From positions 209,591 through 273,590 of the forward strand of contig JAGCOB010000008.1 in assembly GCA_017645645.1 (NCBI GenBank): a DNA stretch of 64,000 nucleotides. Reading direction: 5' to 3'. How positions within the stretch are numbered: position 1 is the first letter of the stretch; the number at the start of each line of letters is the position of its first letter. Under the pieces are notes generated by a model. That model did no database searches, was not told where the DNA came from, and was given only the letters and a program-made list of their open reading frames with translations. A program made the position numbers and the translations under genes. Positions 3,617-39,609 of this stretch are shown here, one piece after another. This DNA is from Prevotella sp. (GTDB taxonomy: Bacteria > Bacteroidota > Bacteroidia > Bacteroidales > Bacteroidaceae).

Positions 3617-3690
3617 GTCGGGATGAGGCGACTCGAACGCCCGACCCCTACGTCCCGAACGTAGTGCGCTACCAACTGCGCTACATCCCG
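3615..3690 (-). tRNA. tRNA-Pro (anticodon CGG), CCA encoded
   Basis: On the minus strand the 7-bp acceptor stem is CGGGATG/CATCCCG. The anticodon arm is CTACG-TTCGGGA-CGTAG, giving anticodon CGG for codon CCG. The T-arm has GGGCG-TTCGAGT-CGCCT. The 3' CCA is encoded (3615-3617). The D arm contains AGTTGGTA. Confidence 0.95.
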
Positions 3691-24267: not shown

Positions 24268-24310
24268 GTCATTTCTTACCAGACACTACAGAAGTTTTTT
24301 CATTGAATTT

Positions 24311-24373
24311 AATGTCACTAATGTCATAAATGCCCTGTTTATGGGCATTTTTTAGTGACATTAGTGACATTGA
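24311..24373. repeat. Island boundary palindrome, left copy (also a terminator)
   Basis: AATGTCACTAATGTCA, then ATGCCC-TGTTTAT-GGGCAT-TTTTT, then TGACATTAGTGACATT: nested palindrome with a terminator-like core. The 54 bp from 24320 to 24373 recur in reverse orientation at 27518-27571. Outer TTTCTTACCA/TGGTAAGAAA arms (about 24272 and 24384) extend this copy. Confidence 0.85.
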
Positions 24374-24405
24374 GGATCTGTTTTGGTAAGAAAATGGGGA
24401 AAAAG

Positions 24406-24484: not shown

Positions 24485-24931
24485 ATGATTTCAAACTGTC
24501 TTGTTTTTAAGGAGATTCCGAGAACGTTCATGCTGTGCTTCAACGGTGAGTGTGCCATGCGTGAGAACTGTCTACGTTTTCAGGCAGGTATTCAGGCGAG
24601 TCGACAATGGGATTGGGGAACTGCCGTCTTCCCGTCAGCCCTGAAAGACGGGCAGTGCCCCTACTACCGGAAGGTAGAGGAGGTACAACTTGCCTATGGC
24701 TTCCATGGGCTGTATATAAATGTACCCAGGTATGAGCGTTCCATGATGCGCAAAATGGTCACCGACTATATCGGTTCTGTAGGCGGTTATTACCGCTACC
24801 ATTACGGAGAACGGCTGCTGACTCCGAAACAGCAACAAACCATTCTGCGTTTCTTCACATCTCGCGGCTATGGAGAGGGAATCTTCTTCGACCACTATGA
24901 AACAGCCTATAACTTCGAGGAACATGAGTAA
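24485..24931 (+). CDS. Small island protein of unknown function (DUF6078-like?)
   Basis: A 148-aa protein. The N-terminal part has FMLCFNGECAMRENCLRFQA with three cysteines spaced like a small metal site, and a further Cys in QCPYYRKV. The C-terminal half (SMMRKMVTDYIGSVGGYYRYHYGERLLTPKQQQTILRFF, residues about 80-120) looks like a basic helical domain that could bind nucleic acid. It resembles Bacteroidales proteins listed as DUF6078, but this is from memory. Start 24485 is used because upstream in-frame sequence contains the promoter. It heads the island and precedes the phased TGGAAC array and the primase-like gene. Confidence 0.6.
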   Translation: MISNCLVFKEIPRTFMLCFNGECAMRENCLRFQAGIQASRQWDWGTAVFPSALKDGQCPYYRKVEEVQLAYGFHGLYINVPRYERSMMRKMVTDYIGSVGGYYRYHYGERLLTPKQQQTILRFFTSRGYGEGIFFDHYETAYNFEEHE

Positions 24932-24970
24932 TCCCTCGTCGGGATGCCCCCTGACACCTGTTACACGACA

Positions 24971-25064
24971 TGGAACGGTGTGTTCCATAAGGTGGAACTA
25001 GTTGTTCCATGGCATGGAACAAAGTATTCCATAGGGTGGAACAAGTCGTTCCCATGGCTGGAAC
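24971..25064. repeat. Array of nine TGGAAC half-sites at exact 11-bp period
   Basis: TGGAAC and GTTCCA alternate with 5-nt spacers: 24971, 24982, 24993, 25004, 25015, 25026 (ATTCCA), 25037, 25048 (GTTCCC) and 25059. Spacers differ in sequence but never in length. It can be read as 22-bp palindromic units repeated 4.5 times, on one face of the helix, or as four RNA hairpins with 5-nt loops. No -7 box lies between it and the primase gene. Confidence 0.95.
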
Positions 25065-25117: not shown

Positions 25118-26971
25118 ATGAAACTATCATTGATCAGAACAGACAAGAACAACCGTCAACATCTGAAGATCGTTCCCATGGAACAGGTAATGCAGGCGGT
25201 AGTGAGAGACAACGGTAACAACGACATCGACGAATTTCGTAATTTCGTCCGGTGGGCAGAGTCATGGATGACCTTCCGCAAGCTTCACCGCTACCCAGTG
25301 GTCTATCCCTCCGTGGAACTCAAGAACGACCAGGAAAGTGGTTTCCAAGTCGTCCGTTTCAACGGACTGCTGACACTGACCGTCGGTACCCTGCATGACA
25401 AGGAGGAAGGAGAAAACGTGAAGCGCATGGCAGCTATCCTGCCCTGTACGGAAGCGGCACTGTTGGGCAGCAGCGGTAAGACGGTGAAGATCCTGGTACG
25501 TATCGCCCGTCCTGACGACCATCTCCCTAAGGACGAGGACGAGATGGAGGCATTCTGCAGACAGGCATATCCTATTGCCTGCCGCCTCTACGAGACGGTC
25601 ATCCCCATGGCATATACCGGTGAAAGACTGACTATCGCCCCTGCCATGCGTGACAAGGAGCCACGACTGCTGATGACCGGTTTCCGCCAGACAGTCGATC
25701 CGCACCCCTACTATCATACGGCAGCGGCACTTAGGATTCCTGAAACACTCTCCATGGAGGACATCGAATTCATCACCCACCAATCGGATGAGGTTGATGA
25801 CAGATCGTCTGCGGCTGTCTCAACAGGTACCCGCCAGTTGATCAACCTGTTGGAGAGCCGCTATGCCTTCCGCCAGAACATTGTCATGGGGTATGTGGAA
25901 TACCGCCCCAAAGAGAAATGGCACCTGGGATGGCGACCCGTGGATGAGCGGGTGCAGAACGGTTTTGCCATGGAGGCACGGCTCGCAGGACAAAATGTGT
26001 GGGACAAGGATATCCAACGCTATCTGAGGTCAGACATGGTACGTGCGTACAATCCTGTGCATGAATATCTCTGGAGTCTGTGCAACAAATGGGACGGACG
26101 GGACCATATCGGTGCTCTTGCCAAGACCGTTCCCACGAAGAATTCTCATTGGGGAAAGTGGTTCCGCACATGGTTCCTGGCGATGGTCGAACAATGGCTC
26201 GGGATGAAGCGTAACTACGGCAATGCGATGGTTCCGCTACTGATCTCCAAACAGGGGTATAACAAATCGACGTTCTGTAAGTCTCTGATTCCCATAGACT
26301 TACAATGGGGTTACACGGACAGTCTCTTCCTCTCCGAAAAGAAATCTGTCCTACAGGCGATGAGCCAGTTCCTGCTCATCAACCTCGACGAGTTCAACCA
26401 GATATCGCCTGATGTCCAGCAGGGATTCCTGAAAAACCTCATACAACTGGCTTCCGTCAAGGTGAAACGCCCATACGGAAAACATGTCGAGGAGTTTCCG
26501 CGCCTCGCCTCCTTCATCGCCACCAGCAACGTGACGGATATCCTTGCCGACCCCACAGGAAGCCGCCGTTTCATCGGCATAGAATTGACAGGACCCATCA
26601 ACGTGTCTAAGAAAATCAACTACGACCAGCTCTATGCACAGGCAGTAACCTTGCTCGACCAGGGAGAGCCTACGTGGCTGGACGAGGAACAGACCCGCTT
26701 GCTGATGGAGTCCAACAGCCAATTCCAGTTGCGGTCTTCCGAGGAACTGTTCTTCTGGGAGTGCTTCCGTATTCCTGAAAAGGAAGAGGAGGGACAATAT
26801 ATGAGTACCACCGCCATCTTCACCGTCATCAAGAAGAAAGCAGGTACTGCCATCCGGAACGGCAATCTCCGTTTATTTGGCAGATTCCTCTCCAATATCA
26901 AGCATATCAGGAAACGACGTACCAGTTATGGAACAGAATATCTCGTTTCTCCACTTGAAAAAGCGGAATGA
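25118..26971 (+). CDS. BT4734-type primase-like / VapE (VirE) P-loop protein
   Basis: A 617-aa protein of mobile-element type. Residues about 40-200 match the BT4734-like N-terminal domain (LLTLTVGTLHDKEEGENVKRM-type strand, then GKTVKILVRI), regarded as a divergent archaeo-eukaryotic primase fold. Residues about 320-560 are the VapE/VirE superfamily 3-like ATPase: KWDGRDHI, a Walker A variant in ISKQGYNKSTFCKSLIP, and Walker B in LLINLDEFNQIS, then ATSNVTDILADPTGSRRFIGIE. It may act as a primase-helicase in replication of an integrated element. No integrase or capsid gene is in the island. The last codons recur as a remnant at 27486. Confidence 0.85.
   Translation: MKLSLIRTDKNNRQHLKIVPMEQVMQAVVRDNGNNDIDEFRNFVRWAESWMTFRKLHRYPVVYPSVELKNDQESGFQVVRFNGLLTLTVGTLHDKEEGENVKRMAAILPCTEAALLGSSGKTVKILVRIARPDDHLPKDEDEMEAFCRQAYPIACRLYETVIPMAYTGERLTIAPAMRDKEPRLLMTGFRQTVDPHPYYHTAAALRIPETLSMEDIEFITHQSDEVDDRSSAAVSTGTRQLINLLESRYAFRQNIVMGYVEYRPKEKWHLGWRPVDERVQNGFAMEARLAGQNVWDKDIQRYLRSDMVRAYNPVHEYLWSLCNKWDGRDHIGALAKTVPTKNSHWGKWFRTWFLAMVEQWLGMKRNYGNAMVPLLISKQGYNKSTFCKSLIPIDLQWGYTDSLFLSEKKSVLQAMSQFLLINLDEFNQISPDVQQGFLKNLIQLASVKVKRPYGKHVEEFPRLASFIATSNVTDILADPTGSRRFIGIELTGPINVSKKINYDQLYAQAVTLLDQGEPTWLDEEQTRLLMESNSQFQLRSSEELFFWECFRIPEKEEEGQYMSTTAIFTVIKKKAGTAIRNGNLRLFGRFLSNIKHIRKRRTSYGTEYLVSPLEKAE
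26937..26964 (+). repeat. 28-bp direct repeat, copy 1 (3' end of primase gene)
   Basis: The stretch encoding EYLVSPLEKA at the end of the primase gene; 26 of 28 bases recur at 27486-27513. Confidence 0.8.
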
Positions 26972-27068: not shown

Positions 27069-27329
27069 ATGGAATCAAAGGAAAAGCTAAGGGAGCGTTT
27101 CAAGAGGAAACCGAAGGACTTTACGTTTGAGGAAACAATTACGCTATTATCAGGTTTTGGTTATCATATCCATCATAAAGGAAAAACGTCAGGATCACGT
27201 ATCCGTTTTATGAATGAAGAAAAAGGTATCTACATAGATATACACAAACTGAAGATGGTGTTGACAGCTATCTTGAAGCCTGTAAGGCAGACGGAGTGGA
27301 ACCTGCAAAGCCTTATAGTGGCAGGTTAA
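27069..27329 (+). pseudogene. hicA: hicA toxin remnant, deleted and run into hicB
   Basis: Residues 1-60 follow HicA mRNA-interferase toxins closely: KEKLRERFKRKPKDFTFEET, ITLLSGFGYHIHHKGKTSGSRIRF and the IDIHK of the RNA-binding strand. After about base 27250 homology stops: the HicA C-terminal helix is missing and the frame passes into hicB sequence out of register, ending in a meaningless tail (ILKPVRQTEWNLQ). The catalytic His region (YHIHHKGK) is kept. The 86-aa product is probably non-toxic, but that is not tested. Confidence 0.8.
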
Positions 27330-27485: not shown

Positions 27486-27513
27486 AATATCTCGTTTTTC
27501 CACTCGAAAAAGC
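27486..27513 (+). repeat. 28-bp direct repeat, copy 2 (orphan primase 3' end)
   Basis: Reads YLVFPLEKA followed by TAG in frame; 26/28 match to the end of the primase gene at 26937-26964. The hicAB scar lies between the two copies. Confidence 0.8.
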
Positions 27514-27517
27514 ATAG

Positions 27518-27590
27518 TCAATGTCACTAATGTCACTAAAAAATGCCCATAAACAGGGCATTTATGACATTGTGACATTAGTGACATTGA
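27518..27590. repeat. Island boundary palindrome, right copy (inverted)
   Basis: Reverse complement of the element at 24311-24373, identical over 54 bp, with further similarity outward (ACACTAC and GTTTTTTCA motifs). It closes the 3.3 kb island. Confidence 0.85.
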
Positions 27591-27836
27591 AAAAACTTTT
27601 TGGTAGTGTGTAGTGTACTGAATAAGTGCCAATACTTACCATATTGTCGTTTTTACACTTATTAGCAGGAATGGGGACTTTTTGTTAACAAATGAGCGTA
27701 AAAAAGAGAAAAATGCAGGGAAATATCAAAATTTGTCAATAAAAAATAATGAAGTTTCACAAATTTGTATTATTTTTGCGCCGAAATGTAGCATGGCTCA
27801 CAACTACTAATTAATATTATACAATAACAAAACCGT
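27591..27836 (+). other. Intergenic region and 5' leader of the PUL
   Basis: No gene is seen. A-rich sequence with an inverted repeat AATAAGTG (27621-27628) / CACTTATT (27656-27663) that might be an operator, then a possible -7 box at 27771. The leader from there to susC is about 55 nt. Confidence 0.4.
27771..27778 (+). promoter_or_regulatory. Probable -7 box for the first susC operon
   Basis: TATTTTTG followed by GCG; no clear TTTG lies 20 bp upstream, as expected for a promoter that needs an activator. Confidence 0.55.
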
Positions 27837-30800
27837 ATGAATCTATTTTGCAGTAAGAAAACTCTGCTAGCGGGATTATGTAGCATATTCCTGCTGGGAT
27901 TCTCGTCACAAGCGTATGCCGGGGGGGGAGAGTCTCCGCTTCCTGCTGTACAGCAGACGAAGAAGATTACCGGTACCGTATCGGATGCACAAGGTCCGAT
28001 TATCGGTGCGAGTGTAGTAGTGAAAGGAACGTCAAACGGTGTTGCCACCGACTTCGACGGAAACTTCACGCTGAACGTCAGCCAGGGACAGACTATCGTG
28101 ATTTCCTACATCGGATATCTCACGAAGGAGTTCAAGGTGGACAGTCGCAGTCAGTACGACATCACCCTCGAGGAGGACAAGAAGATGCTCGACGAGGTGG
28201 TGGTCGTAGGTTATGGTACGATGAAGAAGAGTGACATCTCCGGTGCCTCCGTCTCTCTGGGCGAGAGTGCCGTGAAGGGATCAATCATCACTTCTCTCGA
28301 CCAGTCACTGCAGGGTCGTGCAGCCGGTGTGACCGCCGTATCGACTTCTGGTGCCCCTGGCTCCTCATCCGCTATCCGCGTCCGTGGTACTGCCACTATC
28401 AACGCCAATGCCGAGCCGTTGTATGTGATTGACGGTGTGCCCATTCAGAGTGGTGGTAAGTCAGGTGCCGACTATGGTCTGGGCGATGCCCTGGGTAACG
28501 GTGCCGTTTCCACGATCTCTCCGTTGTCTACCATCGATCCTGCAGATATCGTCAGCATGGAGATCCTGAAGGATGCCTCCGCCACCGCCATCTATGGTGC
28601 CCAGGGTGCTAACGGTGTTGTGCTGATCACCACCAAGCGTGGTAAGGCAGGTGATGCCAAGTTCAACTATAACGGTATGGTAGCCTGGAACCGTCAGACT
28701 AAGCGTCTGGATCTGATGAATCTCCGTGAGTATGCAGATTATTATAATTCTTATGCTAATGTCGGCGAAGCTTCCTATGTAGGAAACTACTCCGATCCTT
28801 CCATTTTGGGAAAGGGTACCAACTGGCAGGATGCCGTCTTCCAGACCGCTTTCCAGCATTCTCACCAGATCAGTGCCAACGGTGGTTCCGAGAAGATACA
28901 GTATTATGTCAGTGGAAGTTACATGGACCAGCAAGGTACCATTATTGGTTCTGAGTTCAGACGTATGTCATTCCGTGCCAACCTGGATGCCCAATTGAAG
29001 AAATGGTTGAAGATGAGTGTGAGTGTCACCTATTCTGATACCAAGGATGACCTGAAACTCGCTGACTCTGACGAGGGTCTGATCGGTTACTCACTGACTA
29101 CGATACCCTCTATACCTATTTATAATGTAGACGGTTCCTATTCTTCTGTATCTCAGGAAGGCTATACGAACCCGAACCCCATTGCCATGGCGATGATGGA
29201 TGATATCATCCTCAAGCGTCAGAAACTGAACGGTAACGTGTTCTTCGAGGTGACTCCTATTGAGAACCTGGTATGGCACGCCGAACTGGGCTTCGACTTC
29301 GGCTGGAACCGTGCAGAGACCTATGAGCCGATGGTGGACCTCGGTACCTGGAAGCGTGCCAGCAACGAGAGCCGCATCCAGAAGAACAGCAGCAAGTTCT
29401 GGCAGTTGAAGAACTACCTGACCTACAGCCGTACCTTCGGCAAGCACTCTGCTACCGCCATGCTCGGACAGGAGTGTTGGGAATCGAAATATGACTACAC
29501 CTCTGTCTATAATACGGGACTGCCCTCTGACGAGGTACATAACCCTGCACTGGGAACAGGTACGCCGCAGATCGGTGCCGGCTTCGGCAGCAGTTCGATG
29601 GCTTCGTTCTTCACCCGTTGGACCTATAGCTATGACAACCGCTACAATGCTACCTATACCTACCGTTACGACGGTAGCTCTAACTTCGGTCCCAACAAGC
29701 GTTGGGCAGGCTTCCACTCTATTGCCGCCTCTTGGCGCTTCTCCAACGAGAAGTTCATCGAGAGCTGGGCAGGCAAGTGGTTGAGCAACGGTAAGCTGCG
29801 TGTCGGCTGGGGCCAGACAGGTAATGCTGCTATCGGTGGTTACAAGTGGGGTTCTCCGCTCTCCAAGATGGAGACGGCACTGGGTGTGAGCTATCGTCCT
29901 GCCCAGATTGCCAATAAGGATATCAAGTGGGAGAGTCAGGAACAGTGGAACATCGGTATTGACCTCGGTTTCCTGAACGACCGTATCAACCTGACCATCG
30001 ACTGGTATAACAAGGAGTCAAGGGACATGCTGATGCAGATGCAGCTTCCATCCTATATGGGTACCAGCGGTAACGGCTCTTCTGCCCTTGCCGCACCTTG
30101 GGGTAACTTCGGTCATATCCGTAACACCGGTGTCGAGATTTCGTTGAATACCCATCCGCTCATCGGTAAGTTCCAGTGGGACTCTGAGCTCCAGTTCTCT
30201 ATCAATAAGAACAAGCTGATTGCCCTTACTGACGGTACTGAGACTGGTCAGTTGATTGGTTACGGTCAGTGGACGGATGTCGTCAGCCGTACCCTGGTCG
30301 GCGAGAGCCTCTATAATTTCTATGGCTATGTCTGTGACGGTGTCTACACCTCCCTGGAGGATATCGAAACCTCACCGAAGCCTGCAGCCTATCCGTCCAA
30401 CGGTGTATTCACTAAGAACTCCACCGTCTATGTCGGCGATATCAAGTACAAGGACCTGAACGGTGACGGTATCATCGACGAGAACGACCGTACCAACATC
30501 GGTTCTCCACTGCCTAAGTGGACATTCGGTTGGAACAATACCTTCCGTTGGAACAACTTCGACCTGAATATCTTTATCAACGGTTCTATCGGTAACAAGG
30601 TAGGTAACTATCTGAAGATGAAGATGACCCATATGAACTCTACATGGACCAACCAGCTCGTGGATGTCAGAGACCGTGCCATCCTGGAGCCTATTGACCC
30701 GAACAAGGACTACTCAGGAGGTATTGACCGTGGTGACGGCCAGTTGATCTACAACTGGTACGACGATATCCACAATGTTCGTCTGAAGAATCCTACTACT

Positions 30801-31115
30801 TCCATGCCTCGTGCGTCCATCAACGACCCGAACGACAACGACCGTTGGAGTGACCGTTATATTGAGGACGGCACCTATGTTCGTCTGAAGAACATCTCCT
30901 TAGGATACAACTTCCCCAAGAAGTGGATATCCAAGTTGGGACTTGAGAGCCTGCGTGTATATGCCAACTTCCAGAATCTGCTGACCATTACCAAGTATAG
31001 TGGCTATGATCCTGAAATCGGTGTCAGCACACAGAGTGCTAATGTAATGGGATTGGACAACGCCCGTTATCCTTCTCCTACTACCTATTCATTCGGTCTT
31101 AATGTATCCTTCTAA
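27837..31115 (+). CDS. SusC/RagA-family TonB-dependent glycan transporter (first)
   Basis: A 1092-aa outer-membrane importer. Signal peptide (residues 1-28, ending SSQAYA), carboxypeptidase-D-like regulatory domain (KKITGTVSDAQGPIIGASVV, FDGNFTLNV, about 40-120), TonB box region DEVVVVGYGTMKKSDISGAS, plug with IRVRGTATINANAEPLYVIDGV and DIVSMEILKDASATAIYGAQ, then the barrel to the final SFGLNVSF. It takes up oligosaccharides bound by its SusD partner (next gene, 21 bp). Linked GH5 and GH26 enzymes point to beta-mannan or glucomannan fragments. No PUL regulator is seen beside it. Confidence 0.97.
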   Translation: MNLFCSKKTLLAGLCSIFLLGFSSQAYAGGGESPLPAVQQTKKITGTVSDAQGPIIGASVVVKGTSNGVATDFDGNFTLNVSQGQTIVISYIGYLTKEFKVDSRSQYDITLEEDKKMLDEVVVVGYGTMKKSDISGASVSLGESAVKGSIITSLDQSLQGRAAGVTAVSTSGAPGSSSAIRVRGTATINANAEPLYVIDGVPIQSGGKSGADYGLGDALGNGAVSTISPLSTIDPADIVSMEILKDASATAIYGAQGANGVVLITTKRGKAGDAKFNYNGMVAWNRQTKRLDLMNLREYADYYNSYANVGEASYVGNYSDPSILGKGTNWQDAVFQTAFQHSHQISANGGSEKIQYYVSGSYMDQQGTIIGSEFRRMSFRANLDAQLKKWLKMSVSVTYSDTKDDLKLADSDEGLIGYSLTTIPSIPIYNVDGSYSSVSQEGYTNPNPIAMAMMDDIILKRQKLNGNVFFEVTPIENLVWHAELGFDFGWNRAETYEPMVDLGTWKRASNESRIQKNSSKFWQLKNYLTYSRTFGKHSATAMLGQECWESKYDYTSVYNTGLPSDEVHNPALGTGTPQIGAGFGSSSMASFFTRWTYSYDNRYNATYTYRYDGSSNFGPNKRWAGFHSIAASWRFSNEKFIESWAGKWLSNGKLRVGWGQTGNAAIGGYKWGSPLSKMETALGVSYRPAQIANKDIKWESQEQWNIGIDLGFLNDRINLTIDWYNKESRDMLMQMQLPSYMGTSGNGSSALAAPWGNFGHIRNTGVEISLNTHPLIGKFQWDSELQFSINKNKLIALTDGTETGQLIGYGQWTDVVSRTLVGESLYNFYGYVCDGVYTSLEDIETSPKPAAYPSNGVFTKNSTVYVGDIKYKDLNGDGIIDENDRTNIGSPLPKWTFGWNNTFRWNNFDLNIFINGSIGNKVGNYLKMKMTHMNSTWTNQLVDVRDRAILEPIDPNKDYSGGIDRGDGQLIYNWYDDIHNVRLKNPTTSMPRASINDPNDNDRWSDRYIEDGTYVRLKNISLGYNFPKKWISKLGLESLRVYANFQNLLTITKYSGYDPEIGVSTQSANVMGLDNARYPSPTTYSFGLNVSF

Positions 31116-31136
31116 ACCAACAAAAGACTTCAAAAT

Positions 31137-32903
31137 ATGAAACTATCAAATATTAAATACATGGCAGTTGCGACGTTGCTGGGATTCTCCCTGGCATCCT
31201 GCTCTGATTTCCTGGACAGACCGAATGAGGACGGTTACAACGTTGACAACTATTACAAGACGGACGAGCAGTGCTATTCTGGCGTCAACTATCTGTACAA
31301 CTCACCATGGTATGACTTCCAGCGTGGATTCATCAAGGTCGGTGAGGTGTTATCTGGAAACTACTACTGGGGATCCTCTCCCTATCTGAACTTCTCGGTG
31401 AATGGCTCAGACCAGGACTTGGTCAATATGTCGTACTCCCTGTGGGCAGTCATCGGTCATGCCAACACCGTCTATAACAACCTGAAGGGTGCGTCAGCTT
31501 CACAGGAAGCCATCGACCAGTGTATGGGTGAGTGTCTGACTTGGAAGGCTTTTGCCTATTTCTTCCTGGTCCGCTCCTTCGGTGATGTGCCCATCATCCA
31601 TGACAATGCTGAAGAATTGGTCTCAGGCTCTTATATTACCGCCAAGAAGGTAAAGCGCTCTGATGTCTATGAGTATATCATCATGACCCTTGAGAAAGCG
31701 ATGGAACTCTTGATGAAGAAGGCTCCGCAGTCAGGACGTATCGACTACTACGCTGCTGAGGCCCTGCTCGCCAAGGTTTATCTGACAAGGGCTGGTGTGA
31801 CAGGTGCGCTGAATGCCAGTGACCTTGCCAATGCCGCTAAGTATGCCAAGGATGTCATCGAGAATTCCGGACGCTCCCTGCTGGAAAACTACGGTGATGT
31901 CTGGAAACTGTCGGAGAGCCTGAACGAAGAGAGCCTTATCGCATGGCGCTGGACGGTCGGTGCTAACTGGACCAGCCAGAACACCCTGCAGAGCGACCTT
32001 GCCATGGAAGGCATGGATGAGTTCGGTGACTGCTGGGGCGGATGGAACGGTCTCTCCGTGGACATCCAGGAGGCCTTTGGTATCAAACTGTTGGAGAACC
32101 AGCCGGATGCTTGGTTGAACAATGTGGATTCTCGTCTGAAGGCTACCATGTTCCTGCCGGGTTATGTCTATGACTATCTGTGGGCAGACCATGGTGGATA
32201 TGACTATCTGAAATTTATCTATGACAAGGATTATAACGAGGCTGCAACAGGTACGCTGCAAGCTCCGACAGGTGCTAACTGTGCGAAGCACCTCTATGGA
32301 AACACTGCCGACCACGTGGCTGCCTTGAACATCTCTCCGGCTCGTATGTCATACGCTTTGCCGACTCATATCCTGCGTCTGTCAGATGTCTATCTGATCT
32401 ATGCAGAGGCTTTGCTGGGTACCGGCCGTGCCACTTCCACCAATTCTGAAGTGCTGGATGCTTTCTACGCTGTCCATCATCGTGCCGTGCCTTCCAGTAA
32501 CTATCCCACCAGCGTATCTTGGGAGGATATCTGGAAGGAGCGTCGCCTGGAGTTTGCCATGGAGGGTGACCGCTGGTATGACTTTGTACGTGTCAGCTAT
32601 TATGATCCCGCTTATTGCGTACAGGAATTGACCGCTCAGAAGCGTAACGCTTACTGGGGACTGGACGCCTTGTATAAGGCTTATTACCAGACAGGCTCTT
32701 GGAAGGTAGACTCTTCTAAGCAGGGCTATGACGGCTCTGTGGCTCCTCCCAACGTCATCGTGATGCTGCGTCAGGACTCTGAGGTGCCTAACATGGGCTA
32801 CTTCGCACTGCCGATGTGTGCAGAGGATGTCCTCTTCAACCCGAACCTCGGTTCTAACGTGGAGGGTGAGCATGTGAATGTCCGCGAAACATACAGTTAT
32901 TAA
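31137..32903 (+). CDS. SusD/RagB-family surface lipoprotein (first)
   Basis: A 588-aa outer-membrane lipoprotein; lipobox GFSLASC (Cys22), then SDFLDRPNEDGY, the usual SusD start. TPR-like helices carry CLTWKAFAYFFLVRSFGDVP and YYAAEALLAKVYLTRAG; the C-terminal part has LRLSDVYLIYAEALLGTG and EDIWKERRLEFAMEGDRWYDFVR, both SusD signatures. It forms the lid of the SusC channel and helps capture the glycan. Spacing of 21 bp from susC and 23 bp to the next gene shows one operon. Confidence 0.96.
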   Translation: MKLSNIKYMAVATLLGFSLASCSDFLDRPNEDGYNVDNYYKTDEQCYSGVNYLYNSPWYDFQRGFIKVGEVLSGNYYWGSSPYLNFSVNGSDQDLVNMSYSLWAVIGHANTVYNNLKGASASQEAIDQCMGECLTWKAFAYFFLVRSFGDVPIIHDNAEELVSGSYITAKKVKRSDVYEYIIMTLEKAMELLMKKAPQSGRIDYYAAEALLAKVYLTRAGVTGALNASDLANAAKYAKDVIENSGRSLLENYGDVWKLSESLNEESLIAWRWTVGANWTSQNTLQSDLAMEGMDEFGDCWGGWNGLSVDIQEAFGIKLLENQPDAWLNNVDSRLKATMFLPGYVYDYLWADHGGYDYLKFIYDKDYNEAATGTLQAPTGANCAKHLYGNTADHVAALNISPARMSYALPTHILRLSDVYLIYAEALLGTGRATSTNSEVLDAFYAVHHRAVPSSNYPTSVSWEDIWKERRLEFAMEGDRWYDFVRVSYYDPAYCVQELTAQKRNAYWGLDALYKAYYQTGSWKVDSSKQGYDGSVAPPNVIVMLRQDSEVPNMGYFALPMCAEDVLFNPNLGSNVEGEHVNVRETYSY

Positions 32904-32926
32904 TCCATCTAAAGGAAGATTATAAT

Positions 32927-34366
32927 ATGAATAAGATCAATCAATATACAAAAGGGTTGCTTTTCGCGGCACTTGCCGTGGCAGGACTGACATTGTCTTC
33001 CTGTAAGGATCAGCCCGATGCCTACGAGGTAGCAGACGGAACACCTTCTGTTTACTACATACGCTGCCTCTCGACAGAGGTACAGAACTACAATGATGCG
33101 TCAGATGTCCATTACACCAATGGTGAGTTGGTGGAGAAGGCATCTCCTCAGAGCACCCTGTGTCTGGTAGGTGATAACCTGCGCAGTGTCTATGAGCTTT
33201 ATTTCAACGACTGTAAGGCGGTGCTGAATACCAGCTATATCACAGACAATACCCTGATTGTGGATGTTCCTAAGAGTGTGCCCAAGGAGGTGACCAATAT
33301 GATCTATATGGTGACCCGTGACGGAGCTGTCGTAGAATATCCCTTCAGTGTGGTGATACCTGCTCCGAATATCTCTGAGATGTCGTTGGAGTATGCCAAA
33401 ATCGGTGATCGTGTGACCTTCCAGGGTGACTACTTCGTGGATTATGAGGATTTCCCATTGGAGGTGTACTTCACGGATGCCGCCGGCAACCTGATTCCTG
33501 CAGAGATCAACAGTATTGCTGAAGACTATACTTCTGTGGAAGTAACGATTCCTGAGGGTGCTGCCGAAGGTCCGGTTTCCATGACTTCTATTTATGGAAC
33601 CTCTACCTCTGCCTTCCATTATCAGGACAGCCGCGGTATCATGTTCAACTTCGACAACGGTCGTATCGACCAGGGCTGGCATGCTCGTATCATTGCCAGC
33701 GAGGGCGGTATCGACGGCAACTACATGCAGCTCGGTGACGGCACTGCCACGATGACTGAGGACGGAGACTGGGATGACAGCAACTTCTCGTTCGAGTACT
33801 GGCCAGGTGATCCTAGCTGGAGTACGAATGGTTATCCCAGTCCCCAGGGTATCCGCCTGTTCGACATTGAAGGTGTTGATATGTCGAAGCCCGAGAAGAT
33901 GATTCTCAAGTTCGAGATGTGTATCCCTGCCGGCAATGCCTGGAAGGCTGGTGCTATGCAGATCATCTTCGCTCCGACAAACTATGTTCATCTTACTGGG
34001 ACAAGTCCTGATGTCTATGGCGACGAGGTGCATGGTGCCAACAACATCTTCTTCCGCTGTCCGGGACTTAAAGATGACCCATGGGAGAAAGATGATTATT
34101 TCAAGGACAAGGAGCCGTTGCCACGTGCCCTCTATCGTCCTTGGACGACGACAGGTTCTTATGACACAGGTGGTCAGTGGAAGACAGTGACTATTCCTAT
34201 CGCATCCAGCTTCGTCTATTCTTTTGACGGTTCTGGTCTGACTTTCAACCTGAAGAAGAAGGACTTTGCCAGCCTGACGATGTTCATCGTCGGTGGCGGT
34301 GTCAAGGGAAAAGAGTGCCAGCCGCTCATCAAGATTGACAATATCCGTGTAATTCCGAATAATTAA
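32927..34366 (+). CDS. Surface glycan-binding lipoprotein (SGBP-B-like, IPT/TIG)
   Basis: A 479-aa lipoprotein (LTLSSC, Cys26). Two TIG-type beta domains (about 40-130 and 135-225) precede a C-terminal domain of about 240 residues rich in Trp, Tyr and Asp (GRIDQGWHARII, FSFEYWPGDPSWSTNGYPSP, WTTTGSYDTGGQWKTVTIPI), which resembles the glycan-binding domain of SGBP-B proteins from xyloglucan and mannan loci. Exposed aromatic residues would bind the polysaccharide. Third gene of the operon. Confidence 0.8.
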   Translation: MNKINQYTKGLLFAALAVAGLTLSSCKDQPDAYEVADGTPSVYYIRCLSTEVQNYNDASDVHYTNGELVEKASPQSTLCLVGDNLRSVYELYFNDCKAVLNTSYITDNTLIVDVPKSVPKEVTNMIYMVTRDGAVVEYPFSVVIPAPNISEMSLEYAKIGDRVTFQGDYFVDYEDFPLEVYFTDAAGNLIPAEINSIAEDYTSVEVTIPEGAAEGPVSMTSIYGTSTSAFHYQDSRGIMFNFDNGRIDQGWHARIIASEGGIDGNYMQLGDGTATMTEDGDWDDSNFSFEYWPGDPSWSTNGYPSPQGIRLFDIEGVDMSKPEKMILKFEMCIPAGNAWKAGAMQIIFAPTNYVHLTGTSPDVYGDEVHGANNIFFRCPGLKDDPWEKDDYFKDKEPLPRALYRPWTTTGSYDTGGQWKTVTIPIASSFVYSFDGSGLTFNLKKKDFASLTMFIVGGGVKGKECQPLIKIDNIRVIPNN

Positions 34367-34381
34367 ATAATGTATATAGAC

Positions 34382-36853
34382 ATGAAAAAGATCAAGAATA
34401 TATTCGCACTGTTGGTGGTAGCCCTCGTTGGGCTATCCCTGACAGGCTGTAGCAGCGATGACTTGGACACCAACCAGTATCAGGGCGGTGTCAGTCTCAA
34501 CGCATACGGTCCTAACCCCGTGATGCGTGGCGGTCAGTTGCGCTTCGTGGGCAGCAACCTCGATCAGATTGCCAGCGTCACCATTCCGGGTATCCCTGAG
34601 ATTACGAGTATTGATGTTGTCAAGGCAGGTGTCCCCAGTGAGATTCGTGTCACGGTACCGAAGGACGGTCCTGAGGTGGGCTATGTGACCCTGAAGACAA
34701 AGACCGACCAGACGATTACCACGAGGACTCAGTTGGAGTACATCGAGGGTATCGAGATTACGAAGATTCCTGAGGAGGTCGTGATGCCAGGTCAGACCAT
34801 CAAGATTGAGGGTGACTACCTGAACCTGATCTACTCGATGGCGTTTGCTGACGGTGTACTGGTTTCTTCCAACGACTTCGTATCACAGGACCGCTACTTC
34901 ATCGAGGTGGTTGTTCCTGAGGAGGCTAAGACCGGTAAACTGGAATTCTACACGGCTGACCTGACGATCCAGCGTACGGCAAAGGAGGAGGATGAGCTGA
35001 CCTATCAGACCATCATCAGTGACGAAGCCCTGACCGTCGGTCTGCCTACCACCACCAAGATTACCACTCCGCGTGGAGAAACTGAGCCGGAGGGTGTGAT
35101 TACCGCTAAGGCTGGTGAGGAGATCAAACTGACCGGTGAGTATTACAATGTCATCAGTGCCATTAAGTTCGGCGAGGTAGAGGTTACTGACTTCATGATG
35201 AGTGAGGATGGTACATCGTTGATCTTCAACCTGCCTGCCGAGGCTCCTGACGGTGAGATGATTCTGGTATGTAAGTCTGGCGAGGAAGTTCCCGTATGTA
35301 CCTTGACAACGGTGAAGCCCAGCAACTGCCAGGTTGCCCCGAAACCAGTGAAGGCCAATACCGCCCTGACAATCAGTGGTCAGGATATGGATGTGGTGAC
35401 TGGCGTACAGTTCCCCGGTGCTGATATCGTCACGGGTGACAACCTCAACGTGTCTGCCGACAAGGTCGTTGTGGCACTCGTTCCCGAGACGGCTACAGAG
35501 GGTAAGCTCCAACTCGTCATGGCAAACGGTGCAACGGTAGACGTTGACTTCGAACTTGTGAAGCCTGTTGCTACCGCCTATAGCTCCAATCCTGTGAGTG
35601 CCGGTGGACAACTCCGGATTACAGGTACTGACCTCGACCTCGTGAAGAGTGTTGTCTTCGGTGAGGCTGCCTATACACTGGAGACAGCTGACTATAGTGG
35701 TACGACGATTATCAATGTGACCGTTCCGATGGAGGGTAAGTCCGGCAAGCCCCAACTCGTTCTTGCCAACGGTACCTTTGTCGAGGCTCCTGATCTGACC
35801 ATCGATGAGGCAGTGTTCTGTTATGCTGTCACAAAGCCTTGGGAGGAAGAAGGTGTTGAACTGAAGGCAGGTTCTTCCATGACCCTCATCGTCGCCAATG
35901 GTGACAAGTTGACTGGCGTGGAGATGAACGGTGAGACTTGTCAGTGGATTCTGACCGGTGAGGATAAGAACCAGTTGATTATCGGTATTCCTGAGACTGC
36001 CTCTGCGAAGTCTACATTAAGACTGGTTTCCTCTAACGGTGAGATCTCCTATGAAATTACTGTGATTCCTGCCACATCGGTTAATAAGACCATCTGGACA
36101 GGCCTGATAGAACTTACTTGGAATGATGGTGGACGTGTCGGTGTTCCTGCCGCATCCTTCGAGGGTGTTCCCGCAGGTGCCATCCTGACGTTCTGCTATA
36201 CCCAGAAGGATCAGGTATGGGGTCAGGCGCAGGTCAACTATCTTGACTGGAGCGGTATCAACTTCAACCAGGCTGGCGAGGACGTGGTGACCTTCAACCA
36301 GACGCTGATACCTACCGATATCTATGGCTGGTTCCAGGACGGTATCCTGAATCGTGAGACTTCTGTCATCCTTACACAGGAGATTCTCAGTAACATCCTG
36401 GCCAAGAAGGGTGACTATGAAGGTAAGACCTGCGGCATCGTCATCCAGGGTCAAGACCTCATCTTTACGAAGCTCACCTTGTCATGGGAGATATCCCTGG
36501 AGATTGATCTGGCAACAAAGGTCAGTAATATGAACGGTACCCCGATTACCTATCCGTATACATTTACTTGGGATGACACAGGCCGATTCAACCTGTCTCA
36601 AGACTTGTTGCTGAATGATATCGGTGTCAAGAAGGGCTCTAAGATGTTCTTCTATAAAAATGCATCAGAATCAGGACAAATTCAAATCAACAACTCATCA
36701 TGGAGTGCCATTACTTATCTTACTGACTGGAGTGAAGGAAAGGATGTCTTGGAACTTGAATTTGATGATGCGATTATGGAAGCTGTGAATAATGGTGGTC
36801 TTGTCTTACAGGGGGCTATCAGTGGTATTACAAAGATGACAATTCTTCCTTAA
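34382..36853 (+). CDS. Multi-IPT/TIG-repeat surface lipoprotein
   Basis: An 823-aa lipoprotein (SLTGC lipobox, Cys23). It is built from successive TIG-like beta-sandwiches of about 75-90 residues, each starting with a phrase like NPVMRGGQLRFVGSNLDQI, EEVVMPGQTIKIEGDYLNLI, AKAGEEIKLTGEYYNVI, KPVKANTALTISGQDMDVV or NPVSAGGQLRITGTDLDLV. Two tandem C-terminal domains repeat a W-N/D-D-G-R pattern (TWNDGGRVGVPAASF and FTWDDTGRFNLSQD), likely carbohydrate-binding. Start 34382 is chosen over the ATG at 34370 since the signal peptide begins there. It probably extends a glycan-binding head from the cell surface. Confidence 0.78.
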   Translation: MKKIKNIFALLVVALVGLSLTGCSSDDLDTNQYQGGVSLNAYGPNPVMRGGQLRFVGSNLDQIASVTIPGIPEITSIDVVKAGVPSEIRVTVPKDGPEVGYVTLKTKTDQTITTRTQLEYIEGIEITKIPEEVVMPGQTIKIEGDYLNLIYSMAFADGVLVSSNDFVSQDRYFIEVVVPEEAKTGKLEFYTADLTIQRTAKEEDELTYQTIISDEALTVGLPTTTKITTPRGETEPEGVITAKAGEEIKLTGEYYNVISAIKFGEVEVTDFMMSEDGTSLIFNLPAEAPDGEMILVCKSGEEVPVCTLTTVKPSNCQVAPKPVKANTALTISGQDMDVVTGVQFPGADIVTGDNLNVSADKVVVALVPETATEGKLQLVMANGATVDVDFELVKPVATAYSSNPVSAGGQLRITGTDLDLVKSVVFGEAAYTLETADYSGTTIINVTVPMEGKSGKPQLVLANGTFVEAPDLTIDEAVFCYAVTKPWEEEGVELKAGSSMTLIVANGDKLTGVEMNGETCQWILTGEDKNQLIIGIPETASAKSTLRLVSSNGEISYEITVIPATSVNKTIWTGLIELTWNDGGRVGVPAASFEGVPAGAILTFCYTQKDQVWGQAQVNYLDWSGINFNQAGEDVVTFNQTLIPTDIYGWFQDGILNRETSVILTQEILSNILAKKGDYEGKTCGIVIQGQDLIFTKLTLSWEISLEIDLATKVSNMNGTPITYPYTFTWDDTGRFNLSQDLLLNDIGVKKGSKMFFYKNASESGQIQINNSSWSAITYLTDWSEGKDVLELEFDDAIMEAVNNGGLVLQGAISGITKMTILP

Positions 36854-36860
36854 TTAAAAT

Positions 36861-38426
36861 ATGATGATTATGAAACTGAATAAAATATTTAATACACTGT
36901 CAATCGCAGCTGTGGCACTCTTCGCCACAGCCTGCGCTGACACGGATGCCAAGTATGAGATTCCTGTGGTGGGTGCACCGGAGTTCGTCTCTATCACACC
37001 TGCTGAAGACGGAGTGTTGCTCTTTGGCGAGAAAACGATTAAGGTGAAGTTCGACCGCAGGGTCTTTTTCATGTCAGAGGATGCCAGTCTGATTACGTTG
37101 AACGGTGTTCCTGTGAAGAAAGCACTGGTCTTGGGTCCTGACTCCGCACTGACCATTACGGCAGATGTCAGCTTTGAGAAGAGTCAGAACCTGGTGATTC
37201 CCGCAGGTTTGATTACCGGTTCTCAGGGCGATCCTTACGATGAGGAAATCAATGTGACATGGACAATCAACCCCCTGCCCAGCAACACAGCTACGGCGAT
37301 GACCGAGAAGTTAGGCTGGGGTTGGAACCTCGGTAACCACTTCGATACCAGTAATATGGAGTGGGGCTATTGGGACGGTGTTGATGTGATATCTGCTGCA
37401 CCTTTCCAGACCTTGTCAACCGCCGGTGCCAAGACACTGCGTCTGCCAGTCACCTGGACGAACCATATGGATGAGAATAACGTCATCGATGCCGCCTACC
37501 TGGATGAGGTTGCCGGTGTTGTTGACAAGGCAATAGCCGCTGGTATGAATGTGATTGTGAACACGCACCACGACAGTTTTGAGACTGATCTTGGAAATGC
37601 TGCCGTAAGTACGGAAGTAGGCGAGAAGTACGAAGCCTTGATTACCACATTGTGGACACAGGTGGCAACCCGTTTTGCCGACTATGGTGACCAGCTCATG
37701 TTCGAGACCTTTAATGAGGTTCATGCAGGTGATGACTGGAGTACTGGTTCTGACGCCCAGTTTGCAACGTTGAATAATTGGAACCAGATTGCAGTGGATG
37801 CCATCCGTGCTACGGGCGGCAATAACGCTACCCGTTGGATTGGTGTCGCTGGCTATGCTGCCAATATCGACCTGACGATTGCCCATCTGAAACTGCCGAT
37901 CGATCCAGCCAACCATATTATGGTAGCAGTACACTGCTATGACCCATATAACTTCTGTTTGCATCCAATGGATGATAAAAACGAAAAGGTAGTTTATAAC
38001 AGTTGGGGACATAATGCTGATCCCAAGAAGTCTGTAGCAGGTGCCAATGAGGACTATGTCATTGAGCAACTCTACAAACTGCGTACTGCCTATATCGAGA
38101 AGAACATCCCCTGTTACTTGGGTGAGTACGGTTGTGTATGGCAGACAACGGATGTGGCGAACGCCTTCCGTAAGTACTATCTGGAGTTCTATTGCCGTGC
38201 CGCCAACCTGGCAGGTATCCCGATGTTCATTTGGGACAATAACGCTAAGGATGCCGGCAACGAAGCCAATGGTTATCTTGACCATGCCAACGGTAACTGG
38301 CTGAACGACAGTGAGACCACCGTTCCAATGATGATCAGGGCCTGCACCAGCACAGATACCTCTTACAGCTTTGACGTTATCTGGACACATTCTCCTGCTC
38401 AACCACCTTCGGAAGATGAAGAGTAA
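36861..38426 (+). CDS. GH5 endo-beta-glucanase/mannanase-like lipoprotein
   Basis: A 521-aa lipoprotein enzyme (lipobox FATAC, Cys25). An N-terminal Ig-like domain (about 35-135) is followed by a GH5 barrel: GWGWNLGNHFDTS, TLRLPVTWTNHM, MNVIVNTHHDSF, acid/base Glu near 286 in LMFETFNEVH, HCYDPYNF, nucleophile Glu near 422 in YLGEYGCVW, and FIWDNNA. The motifs resemble subfamily GH5_4 (endoglucanase, xyloglucanase, glucomannanase), which is an eye judgement. It would cut glucan or glucomannan chains at the cell surface. The first codons include two Met options (36861, 36870). Confidence 0.88.
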   Translation: MMIMKLNKIFNTLSIAAVALFATACADTDAKYEIPVVGAPEFVSITPAEDGVLLFGEKTIKVKFDRRVFFMSEDASLITLNGVPVKKALVLGPDSALTITADVSFEKSQNLVIPAGLITGSQGDPYDEEINVTWTINPLPSNTATAMTEKLGWGWNLGNHFDTSNMEWGYWDGVDVISAAPFQTLSTAGAKTLRLPVTWTNHMDENNVIDAAYLDEVAGVVDKAIAAGMNVIVNTHHDSFETDLGNAAVSTEVGEKYEALITTLWTQVATRFADYGDQLMFETFNEVHAGDDWSTGSDAQFATLNNWNQIAVDAIRATGGNNATRWIGVAGYAANIDLTIAHLKLPIDPANHIMVAVHCYDPYNFCLHPMDDKNEKVVYNSWGHNADPKKSVAGANEDYVIEQLYKLRTAYIEKNIPCYLGEYGCVWQTTDVANAFRKYYLEFYCRAANLAGIPMFIWDNNAKDAGNEANGYLDHANGNWLNDSETTVPMMIRACTSTDTSYSFDVIWTHSPAQPPSEDEE

Positions 38427-38451
38427 ATATATATTATATATATAATAAGGT

Positions 38452-39609
38452 ATGAGAAAAACACTTCATATCATTGCCGCCGCACTGGTCTTTGCCTCGT
38501 GCGGCGGCAATCAGCATAAGGCGGAGGATCCGCTGGCTGATAGTGGAAGAACACAGCGGACGGAGAATCTGCTGACGAACCTGAAAATGTTAGGCGACAG
38601 TAGTGTCTATCTCTTCGGACATCATGACGATACCGTCTATGGTATCGGATGGGAAGGCGACGAAGACCGTTCTGACGTGAAGAGCGTCTGCAACGACTAT
38701 CCTGCCCTCCAGAGTTTTGACCTCGGACATCTTGAACTGGGCGATACTGCCAACCTGGACGGTGTCCCTTTCAACCGTATCCGTCAGGAGATCATCAAAC
38801 AGTATGACCGGGGCGGTATGGTGACACTGAGCTGGCACCTGGACAATCCGCTGAGCGGCGGTACCTCATGGGTGGCTGACTCCTTGAAGGAGATAGAGGT
38901 GAAGACGGTGGCTGCCGTCCTAGAGGGGGGCGAGAAACATGAACTGTTCCTCTCATGGCTTGACAAGGTGGCTGACTTCCTCAACTCCCTGGAGACACCC
39001 TACGGTGTCAAGGTGCCGGTCTTGTTCCGCCCCTGGCATGAGCATACTGGCTCGTGGTTCTGGTGGGGACAGGACCTCTGTACTGCCGATCAGTACAAGG
39101 CACTGTGGAAGATGACCGTCAGCCGTCTCAAGGAGAAGGGGGTGACAAATGCGCTGTATGCCTATTCGCCAGGTACGGAGCCTGACGGTGACGAGGCAAA
39201 GTATCTGGAACGCTATCCGGGTGACGAAATTATCGACCTGATGGGACTGGACTGCTATTGCTGGGCTCCCGAGGCTGATACCACACAGATTGCCCAGTAT
39301 GCTGTCACACTCGACAAGAACCTGGCCATGGTCTGCGCCGTGGCGAAGAAACATGAAAAGGCGGTGGCTCTGACGGAAACGGGCTATGAGTGTATCAAGA
39401 CGAAAGACTGGTGGACGGCCACACTGGCACCTGTCCTTGCCAAGCATCCCATCAGCTATGTCCTGGTTTGGCGCAATGCCTATAACCGACCTCATCACTA
39501 TTTCGCCCCCTATCCGGGACAGCAGTCTGCCGCTGACTTTGTTCGTTTCTATAACGACAAAAATACTTTATTTAGAGGAGACCTTAATGGGCTGTATTTA
39601 ACACATTGA
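38452..39609 (+). CDS. GH26 endo-beta-1,4-mannanase-like lipoprotein
   Basis: A 385-aa lipoprotein (VFASC, Cys17). The GH26 pattern is clear: YLFGHHDDTVYGIGW, MVTLSWHLDNP, acid/base Glu near 197 in LFRPWHEHTGSWFWWG, YSPGTEPDGDE, DLMGLDCYCW and nucleophile Glu near 309 in VALTETGYE. GH26 enzymes from Bacteroidetes are mostly beta-mannanases, some releasing mannobiose. With the GH5 protein it gives the locus its likely substrate. Last gene of the first PUL operon. Confidence 0.92.
   Translation: MRKTLHIIAAALVFASCGGNQHKAEDPLADSGRTQRTENLLTNLKMLGDSSVYLFGHHDDTVYGIGWEGDEDRSDVKSVCNDYPALQSFDLGHLELGDTANLDGVPFNRIRQEIIKQYDRGGMVTLSWHLDNPLSGGTSWVADSLKEIEVKTVAAVLEGGEKHELFLSWLDKVADFLNSLETPYGVKVPVLFRPWHEHTGSWFWWGQDLCTADQYKALWKMTVSRLKEKGVTNALYAYSPGTEPDGDEAKYLERYPGDEIIDLMGLDCYCWAPEADTTQIAQYAVTLDKNLAMVCAVAKKHEKAVALTETGYECIKTKDWWTATLAPVLAKHPISYVLVWRNAYNRPHHYFAPYPGQQSAADFVRFYNDKNTLFRGDLNGLYLTH

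Follow-up and report, generated by a model that had tools for sequence, protein, structure and literature searches.

The described systems closest to the repeats analysed here are the REP/BIME elements and their RAYT partners, in which, according to the portions of two reports available to us (PMC2817692, PMC6006769), palindromes in alternating orientation are dispersed through the genome, each repeat class has one gene, which it flanks, and gene and repeat co-evolve. By the same portions, RAYT (TnpA-REP) is a Y1 HUH transposase with an HxH motif and a catalytic tyrosine, and REP sequences carry a GTRG/CGTC head and usually exceed 100 copies per genome. The BrickBuilt MITE of Porphyromonas gingivalis is described, in the consulted part of its report (PMC4596501), as 19 dispersed and always intergenic copies built of 23-nt direct tandem repeats with a leader, a tail and inverted-repeat ends. 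Rickettsia palindromic elements are single elements of about 150 bp that lie in frame in genes, the consulted part of a review (PMC10969869) mentioning no partner gene. BT4734-like/VapE (VirE) primase-helicase genes are known from mobile elements, and the consulted part of that account (PMC5862659) mentions neither an array, nor DUF6078, nor an island bounded by terminal inverted repeats (TIRs).

We analysed a window of 64,000 nucleotides from a Prevotella genome, in which a phased palindromic array of ten 6-bp half-sites with 5-bp spacers occupies positions 24960..25064 (no strand assigned). Direct reading and a pattern search placed nine good half-sites, TGGAAC and GTTCCA in alternation, at 24971, 24982, 24993, 25004, 25015, 25026, 25037, 25048 and 25059 (24971-25064), with 5-nt spacers and an 11-bp phase. 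Seven of these are exact and two carry one mismatch (ATTCCA at 25026, GTTCCC at 25048), and a tenth, degenerate half-site (GTTACA) stands in phase ahead of them at 24960. A detector independent of the word, which requires at least five hexamers that alternate with their complements at an 11-bp phase, gave 0 arrays when run on 496,910 bases of loci scrambled by a simple base shuffle. The preliminary description of this DNA had correctly read the nine phased half-sites, and had further taken the spacers to be free in sequence and the array to be non-coding. The spacers are not fully free, as alternate ones recur as TAGGG, TGGGG, TGGCA or their complements in this array and in many sister arrays; the array in the window is indeed non-coding, but some of its sister arrays lie in frame inside genes.

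The array is flanked by two genes within a small island. Upstream, ending 29 bp ahead of the first half-site, is a 148-aa DUF6078 gene on the forward strand (24485..24931; PF19555, E 2.6e-33, 115.8 bits against a cut-off of 27), the proposed reader of the array. Downstream, also on the forward strand, is a 617-aa BT4734_N-VapE-DUF3874 primase-helicase-like gene (25118..26971; hereafter VapE), which exceeds the gathering scores of PF08800 (61 bits, 22.4 required) and PF05272 (112.3 bits, 25 required) and the cut-off of PF12990, and matches PHROG DNA helicase/primase families. The left TIR (24292..24384) pairs with the right (27507..27598), neither having an assigned strand, through arms of 65 nt (24320-24384 with 27507-27571, 92%) and outer arms of 27 nt (24292-24318 with 27572-27598, 81%). 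These TIRs of about 93 bp bound an island of about 3.3 kb that encloses DUF6078, the array, VapE and a HicA-like frame, bearing out the earlier claim that the array sits in an island beside a BT4734/VapE gene. Inverted repeats also surround the VapE gene in 10 of 30 fetched VapE loci, and in a reindeer Prevotella MAG (L042) the DUF6078-array-VapE order is repeated inside 105-bp inverted repeats. The HicA-like frame (27069-27329) is below the Pfam cut-off (E 0.0083) and matches a PHROG toxin family (E 1.1e-7); what we take to be a HicB-type tail follows in another reading frame to about 27455, and the region from 27069 to there looks degenerate. Right of the island, positions 27837-39609 presumably hold a polysaccharide utilisation locus, with SusC/SusD-like genes, lipoproteins and glycoside hydrolase-like frames.

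The source genome (2.09 Mb on 29 contigs, 64% complete) contains TGGAAC arrays at 12 places, the one in the window included; one of them (C3:35296) has three sites only. A reversed-pattern control gave 0 matches in this genome. Three of the arrays lie in frame inside genes: in a 355-aa gene (L009), in a 418-aa gene that we take to resemble a methyltransferase (L017), and in a 1029-aa frame that presumably resembles a glycosidase (L018). Of 51 arrays flanked by 400 bp or more of sequence on each side, 8 lay inside a frame open for at least 60 codons on either side, although the frames around L056 and L070 may have arisen by chance. GTDB representatives, scanned for four exact TGGAAC half-sites, yielded 57 stretches, in records named Prevotella, Prevotellaceae, Segatella, Alloprevotella or Paraprevotella, with two from 'Bacteroides sp. 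SIG136'; Prevotella sp. tf2-5 has several TGGAAC arrays. Among 60 genomes (source included) the four-site pattern was present in the source genome and G035 only. Half-sites with other words, TGGGAC/GTCCCA and TGAGAC/GTCTCA, extend some TGGAAC arrays of the source genome in phase (L011, L014, L015, L019), as if two words were joined in one array, and CGAAGG/CCTTCG half-sites extend the TGGAAC array with the same 11-bp phase in rumen Prevotella (L063, L076, L080 and similar). The idea of TGGAAC as a constant element that belongs with VapE was dropped in view of the 11 other places in the source genome and the other hexamers in relatives.

Relatives keep the 6-bp word, the 5-bp spacer and the 11-bp phase while the hexamer differs. 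Homologues of the 418-aa gene, fetched by protein search and hence independently of the half-site pattern, carried a strict array at the corresponding place in 5 of 30 fetched loci and lacked one in the other 25; the words were GTTCCA (G000), ATTCCC or GTTCCC (G035), ATTCCC/GGGACT (G061), GTTTCC (G079) and TTCCGC (G007). For the 355-aa gene, 2 of 30 homologues had a strict array. VapE relatives are present in 132 of 200 genomes of the genus, and 17 of 30 fetched VapE loci had an upstream 11-bp array (at least four sites), with words that include GGGAAT, TTTTCC, GTTTCA and TTACAA. That other species retain the 11-bp phase with a different hexamer supports the earlier suggestion of a helical-phase constraint rather than simple duplication. 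One further VapE locus, with no DUF6078 match (L163, in G104), has a related array of longer period upstream of VapE: from position 3631 onward, the 7-bp words ATTCAGT/AGTGAAT recur nine times at a phase of 12 bp. The comparison of half-site with spacer conservation was set aside as an argument: one gene's orthologous arrays over four species gave 98% versus 51% identity, but these loci were selected by the half-site pattern, hence biased, and spacer identity in other orthologous sets was 94%, 92% and 100%. Insertion boundaries were tried in two array-bearing genes and abandoned, the arrays lying in loops of variable length with ends that could not be set, and a script found no filled and empty site pairs among the fetched loci.

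The usual neighbour of the arrays is DUF6078. Its 63 genes in 24 of 26 chosen genomes had a strict array (6-bp words, at least four sites) within 350 bp on the 3' side in 31 cases and within 350 bp on the 5' side in 5, and 0 of the 63 had one 700-1050 bp downstream; allowing 5-bp words changed these counts to 32, 5 and 1, respectively. Periods of 8-10 and 12-17 bp gave 0 arrays in all three places around the 63 genes, and Markov-resampled 3' regions gave at most 0.05 arrays per period. The strict 3' array was absent for 32 of the 63 genes, and it accompanied 27 of 38 high-scoring DUF6078 genes (at least 100 bits) versus 4 of 25 others. Outside the genus, the detector found an array 3' of DUF6078 in 4 of 7 loci, some with 5-bp words: Bacteroides finegoldii, whose locus has no VapE, and three gut 'phage' contigs, one of them with DUF6078 oriented away from VapE. 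The detector found no array in L210, L212 (Parabacteroides distasonis) and L214; an irregular array is visible by eye in L212, and L214 has VapE with no DUF6078 match. A search for DUF6078 in viral contigs yielded no conserved stretch.

The hexamer also follows the DUF6078 lineage. Across the 31 arrays, distances between DUF6078 sequences correlated with distances between words (Spearman 0.413, 0 of 5000 permutations). VapE, which lies beyond the array, could be used to control for linkage in 22 arrays; there the correlation with the word was 0.38 for DUF6078 (0 of 3000) and 0.03 for VapE (1182 of 3000), with partial correlations of 0.41 for DUF6078 given VapE (0 of 3000) and -0.17 for VapE given DUF6078. 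Linkage could explain part of the correlation between DUF6078 and word. Paralogues of DUF6078 within one genome carry different words (TGGTCA and TTTTCT in G134, five words in G202), and one DUF6078 clade is accompanied by TTTTCT or TTTTCC in five genomes (G105, G079, G134, G181, G202).

To a large extent, the word found beside DUF6078 is dispersed through the same genome. Searching six words in 26 genomes (the first four picked from VapE loci), we found the word elsewhere in the genome in 16 of 18 word-genome cells in which it stands beside DUF6078, whereas the other 138 cells had at least four matches in 12 cases and at least one in 19 (Fisher 1.5e-12 and 1.8e-10, respectively, for cells that are not independent). 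TGGTCA, predicted before the search for G134 only, was found there on five contigs and gave 0 matches in the 25 other genomes. TTACCA, predicted in the same way for G202 and G027, was found on eleven contigs of G202 (two bearing DUF6078 copies) and on five of G027, with one stray match each in G147 and G024, and TTACAR was confined to the two genomes that have this word beside DUF6078, G145 and G177. Three words gave exceptions. GGGAAY was common without an adjacent DUF6078 copy in G007 (56 matches), G177 (26), G061 (17), G145 (16), G105 (14) and G181 (10), with fewer matches in G197 and G134; TGGAAC had 21 matches in G035 and 35 in G080 (62% complete) without such a word beside DUF6078; and in G105 and G061 RGAAAA stood nowhere but beside DUF6078. 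RGAAAA also had 12 matches, maybe another feature, in G066, whose array 3' of DUF6078 reads TGGGCA. A reversed control pattern matched 30 times in G174 and once in each of four other genomes; G174, in which no DUF6078 was found, perhaps has a further AAAAGR-type word.

Among 34 DUF6078 sequences, for which this is the sole Pfam family matching all members, the invariant positions are C18, C23, C29, C58, A70, G72, G108, Q117 and G128, and the nearly invariant ones P50, F73, R89, Y102, Y103, L112, I120 and F135; none of these is a histidine or an acidic residue. A search for solved structures gave no significant relative, the best match being a lambda repressor-like chain (E 0.26). From the associations of gene, array and word, we infer that DUF6078 is probably the reader of the arrays. 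In our best explanation, the array in the window would be the home copy of a family of dispersed repeats, partnered by the DUF6078 gene directly upstream; the protein, whose four invariant cysteines possibly bind zinc, would contact the half-sites in double-stranded form, one in each helical turn and hence along one face. Through such binding DUF6078 may create or maintain the dispersed copies, and the pair would then work like REP and RAYT with an unrelated protein. We place middling confidence in this explanation as a whole, in which DUF6078 both recognises the arrays and spreads or maintains them, binding and mobility being proposed on the strength of those associations.

The same association data would also fit if DUF6078 were a DNA-binding regulator or nucleoid-type protein, autoregulating and acting at fixed sites that do not spread. 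Consistent with this, DUF6078 has no conserved acidic or histidine residues suggestive of a nuclease, and arrays stand at one codon position of one gene in 5 of 30 loci with differing words, as if old sites had been kept. However, sites within genes would be unusual for such a protein, as would arrays that reach 18 half-sites, and the site sets vary between species; we consider the regulator unlikely.

The arrays could alternatively be a self-spreading minisatellite or MITE-like repeat, linked to DUF6078 by shared descent only. Some arrays have this appearance: TIR pieces of some relatives (L063, L077, L071) contain an array but neither DUF6078 nor VapE, and the arrays of L014 and L017 look expanded by a 22-bp duplication. 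The 11 other arrays of the source genome do not, since inverted repeats of at least 16 bp were found within 400 bp of 0 of the 11 and their 40-bp flanks have a mean identity of 29% (with the exception of L011/L019, 31 of 40), which sets them apart from copies of the TIR island. Moreover, paralogues within a genome differ in word, and the word tracks the DUF6078 lineage across species and not that of the equally adjacent VapE, making spread by the repeat alone quite unlikely. A MITE enclosing the array was rejected as a candidate, as it fits some TIR-plus-array pieces in relatives but not the source genome's other copies. Long TIRs with inner palindromes form a family of varied cargo (DUF6078-VapE, an ATPase-like gene, or an array without a long gene), located at 484-588/3152-3256 in L042, 588-701/2982-3095 in L035 and 101-171/790-860 in L063.

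The preliminary description had suggested that the array may be an origin-like iteron array or a cooperative operator, and had asked whether it tracks the 5' side of BT4734/VapE genes. If it served the VapE island in this way, the copies elsewhere would be relics of former islands or decoys. The island is indeed TIR-bounded, the array does lie 5' of VapE in the 17 of 30 loci noted above, and VapE is downstream of 25 of the 31 arrays 3' of DUF6078. Yet the array was present in 16 of 21 VapE loci having a DUF6078 match versus 1 of 9 without (some loci being cut by contig ends). The remaining 6 of the 31 arrays had no VapE match within 1.5 kb downstream, and among the 32 DUF6078 genes without a 3' array, 9 were accompanied by VapE and 23 were not. 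In addition, the word does not track VapE, the 11 other arrays of the source genome have neither nearby inverted repeats nor common flanks, and the repeats are not, as plasmid-type iterons are, confined to a replication gene and following it. An origin or operator of the primase is accordingly very unlikely. Occurrence at many unrelated loci, named in advance as evidence against any link to the primase gene, is what we found, yet the link to the island is also real: VapE would be a passenger, forming with the TIRs an island that often carries the DUF6078-array pair without reading the array.

That the arrays act as RNA, as rows of 6-bp hairpins in transcripts, is highly improbable: the half-sites do remain complementary as the word changes and many arrays would be transcribed along with the genes that contain them (the 8 of 51 in long open frames), but the linkers keep to 5 nt just as strictly as the loops do, a regularity that hairpins would not need, and the sole period 3' of DUF6078 is 11 bp, near one helical turn, so that equal spacers and a single period would better fit a reader of double-stranded DNA.

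The pairing of one word with each version of the DUF6078 gene points to a partnership of protein and repeat, so far undescribed, among bacteria of the gut and rumen. Neither the name DUF6078 nor a description of these phased arrays was found in the literature searched, outside which lie subscription papers and preprints. With DUF6078 as the reader, a family of unknown function gains a testable partner and a readable code, leading from gene to 3' hexamer to genome-wide arrays, and the words TGGAAC, GGGAAY, RGAAAA, TTACAR, TTACCA, TGGTCA and others would provide natural protein-DNA specificity pairs for recognition studies. The partnership may be a second, unrelated solution to the role of REP and RAYT, that of keeping palindromic repeats alive in bacterial chromosomes. 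More tentatively, DUF6078, a small protein with four cysteines, could conceivably be the founding example of a non-HUH class of repeat partners that is new; it would read a hexamer specific to its lineage once in every helical turn and itself seed or rewrite phased arrays chromosome-wide, including in frame inside host genes, such that the words in a genome would equal in number its active DUF6078 lineages.

Set beside the known systems, to the extent that the consulted portions of the reports describe them, the 617-aa gene belongs to BT4734/VapE by Pfam and differs in having an array, DUF6078 and a TIR island alongside. The arrays share in-frame placement in genes with Rickettsia palindromic elements, but are rows of short half-sites with DUF6078 as the proposed partner. 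BrickBuilt, compared by description only, is likewise a dispersed element of Bacteroidota, and its tandem repeats (23 nt) are close in length to those of the arrays; its repeats are direct and intergenic, and no partner gene is mentioned in the consulted part, whereas the arrays here alternate, lie in some cases in genes and have DUF6078 as putative partner. Inverted-repeat ends, a MITE trait, are seen in the TIR-plus-array pieces of some relatives and in 0 of the source genome's 11 other arrays.

The differences from REP and RAYT, as described in the portions available, are several. DUF6078 lacks HUH-like histidines, although conserved tyrosines exist (Y102, Y103), and a GTRG/CGTC head was found at 2 of 144 TGGAAC array ends (background 7.8%). 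The arrays are mostly one-sided (31 of 63 genes 3', 5 of 63 genes 5'), unlike the two-sided inverted repeats of RAYT genes; they occupy 12 places in the 64%-complete source genome, compared with the usual REP copy number of more than 100; and they have a strict 11-bp phase and in some cases lie in frame in genes. By the features tested, neither the arrays nor DUF6078 resembles REP or RAYT, respectively. The likeness lies in the arrangement: as in REP/BIME-RAYT, the DUF6078 arrays are regularly spaced palindromes in alternating orientation, and the cognate repeats are dispersed in the genome of their gene, one class per gene, in 16 of 18 cells, with GGGAAY, TGGAAC and RGAAAA as the exceptions.
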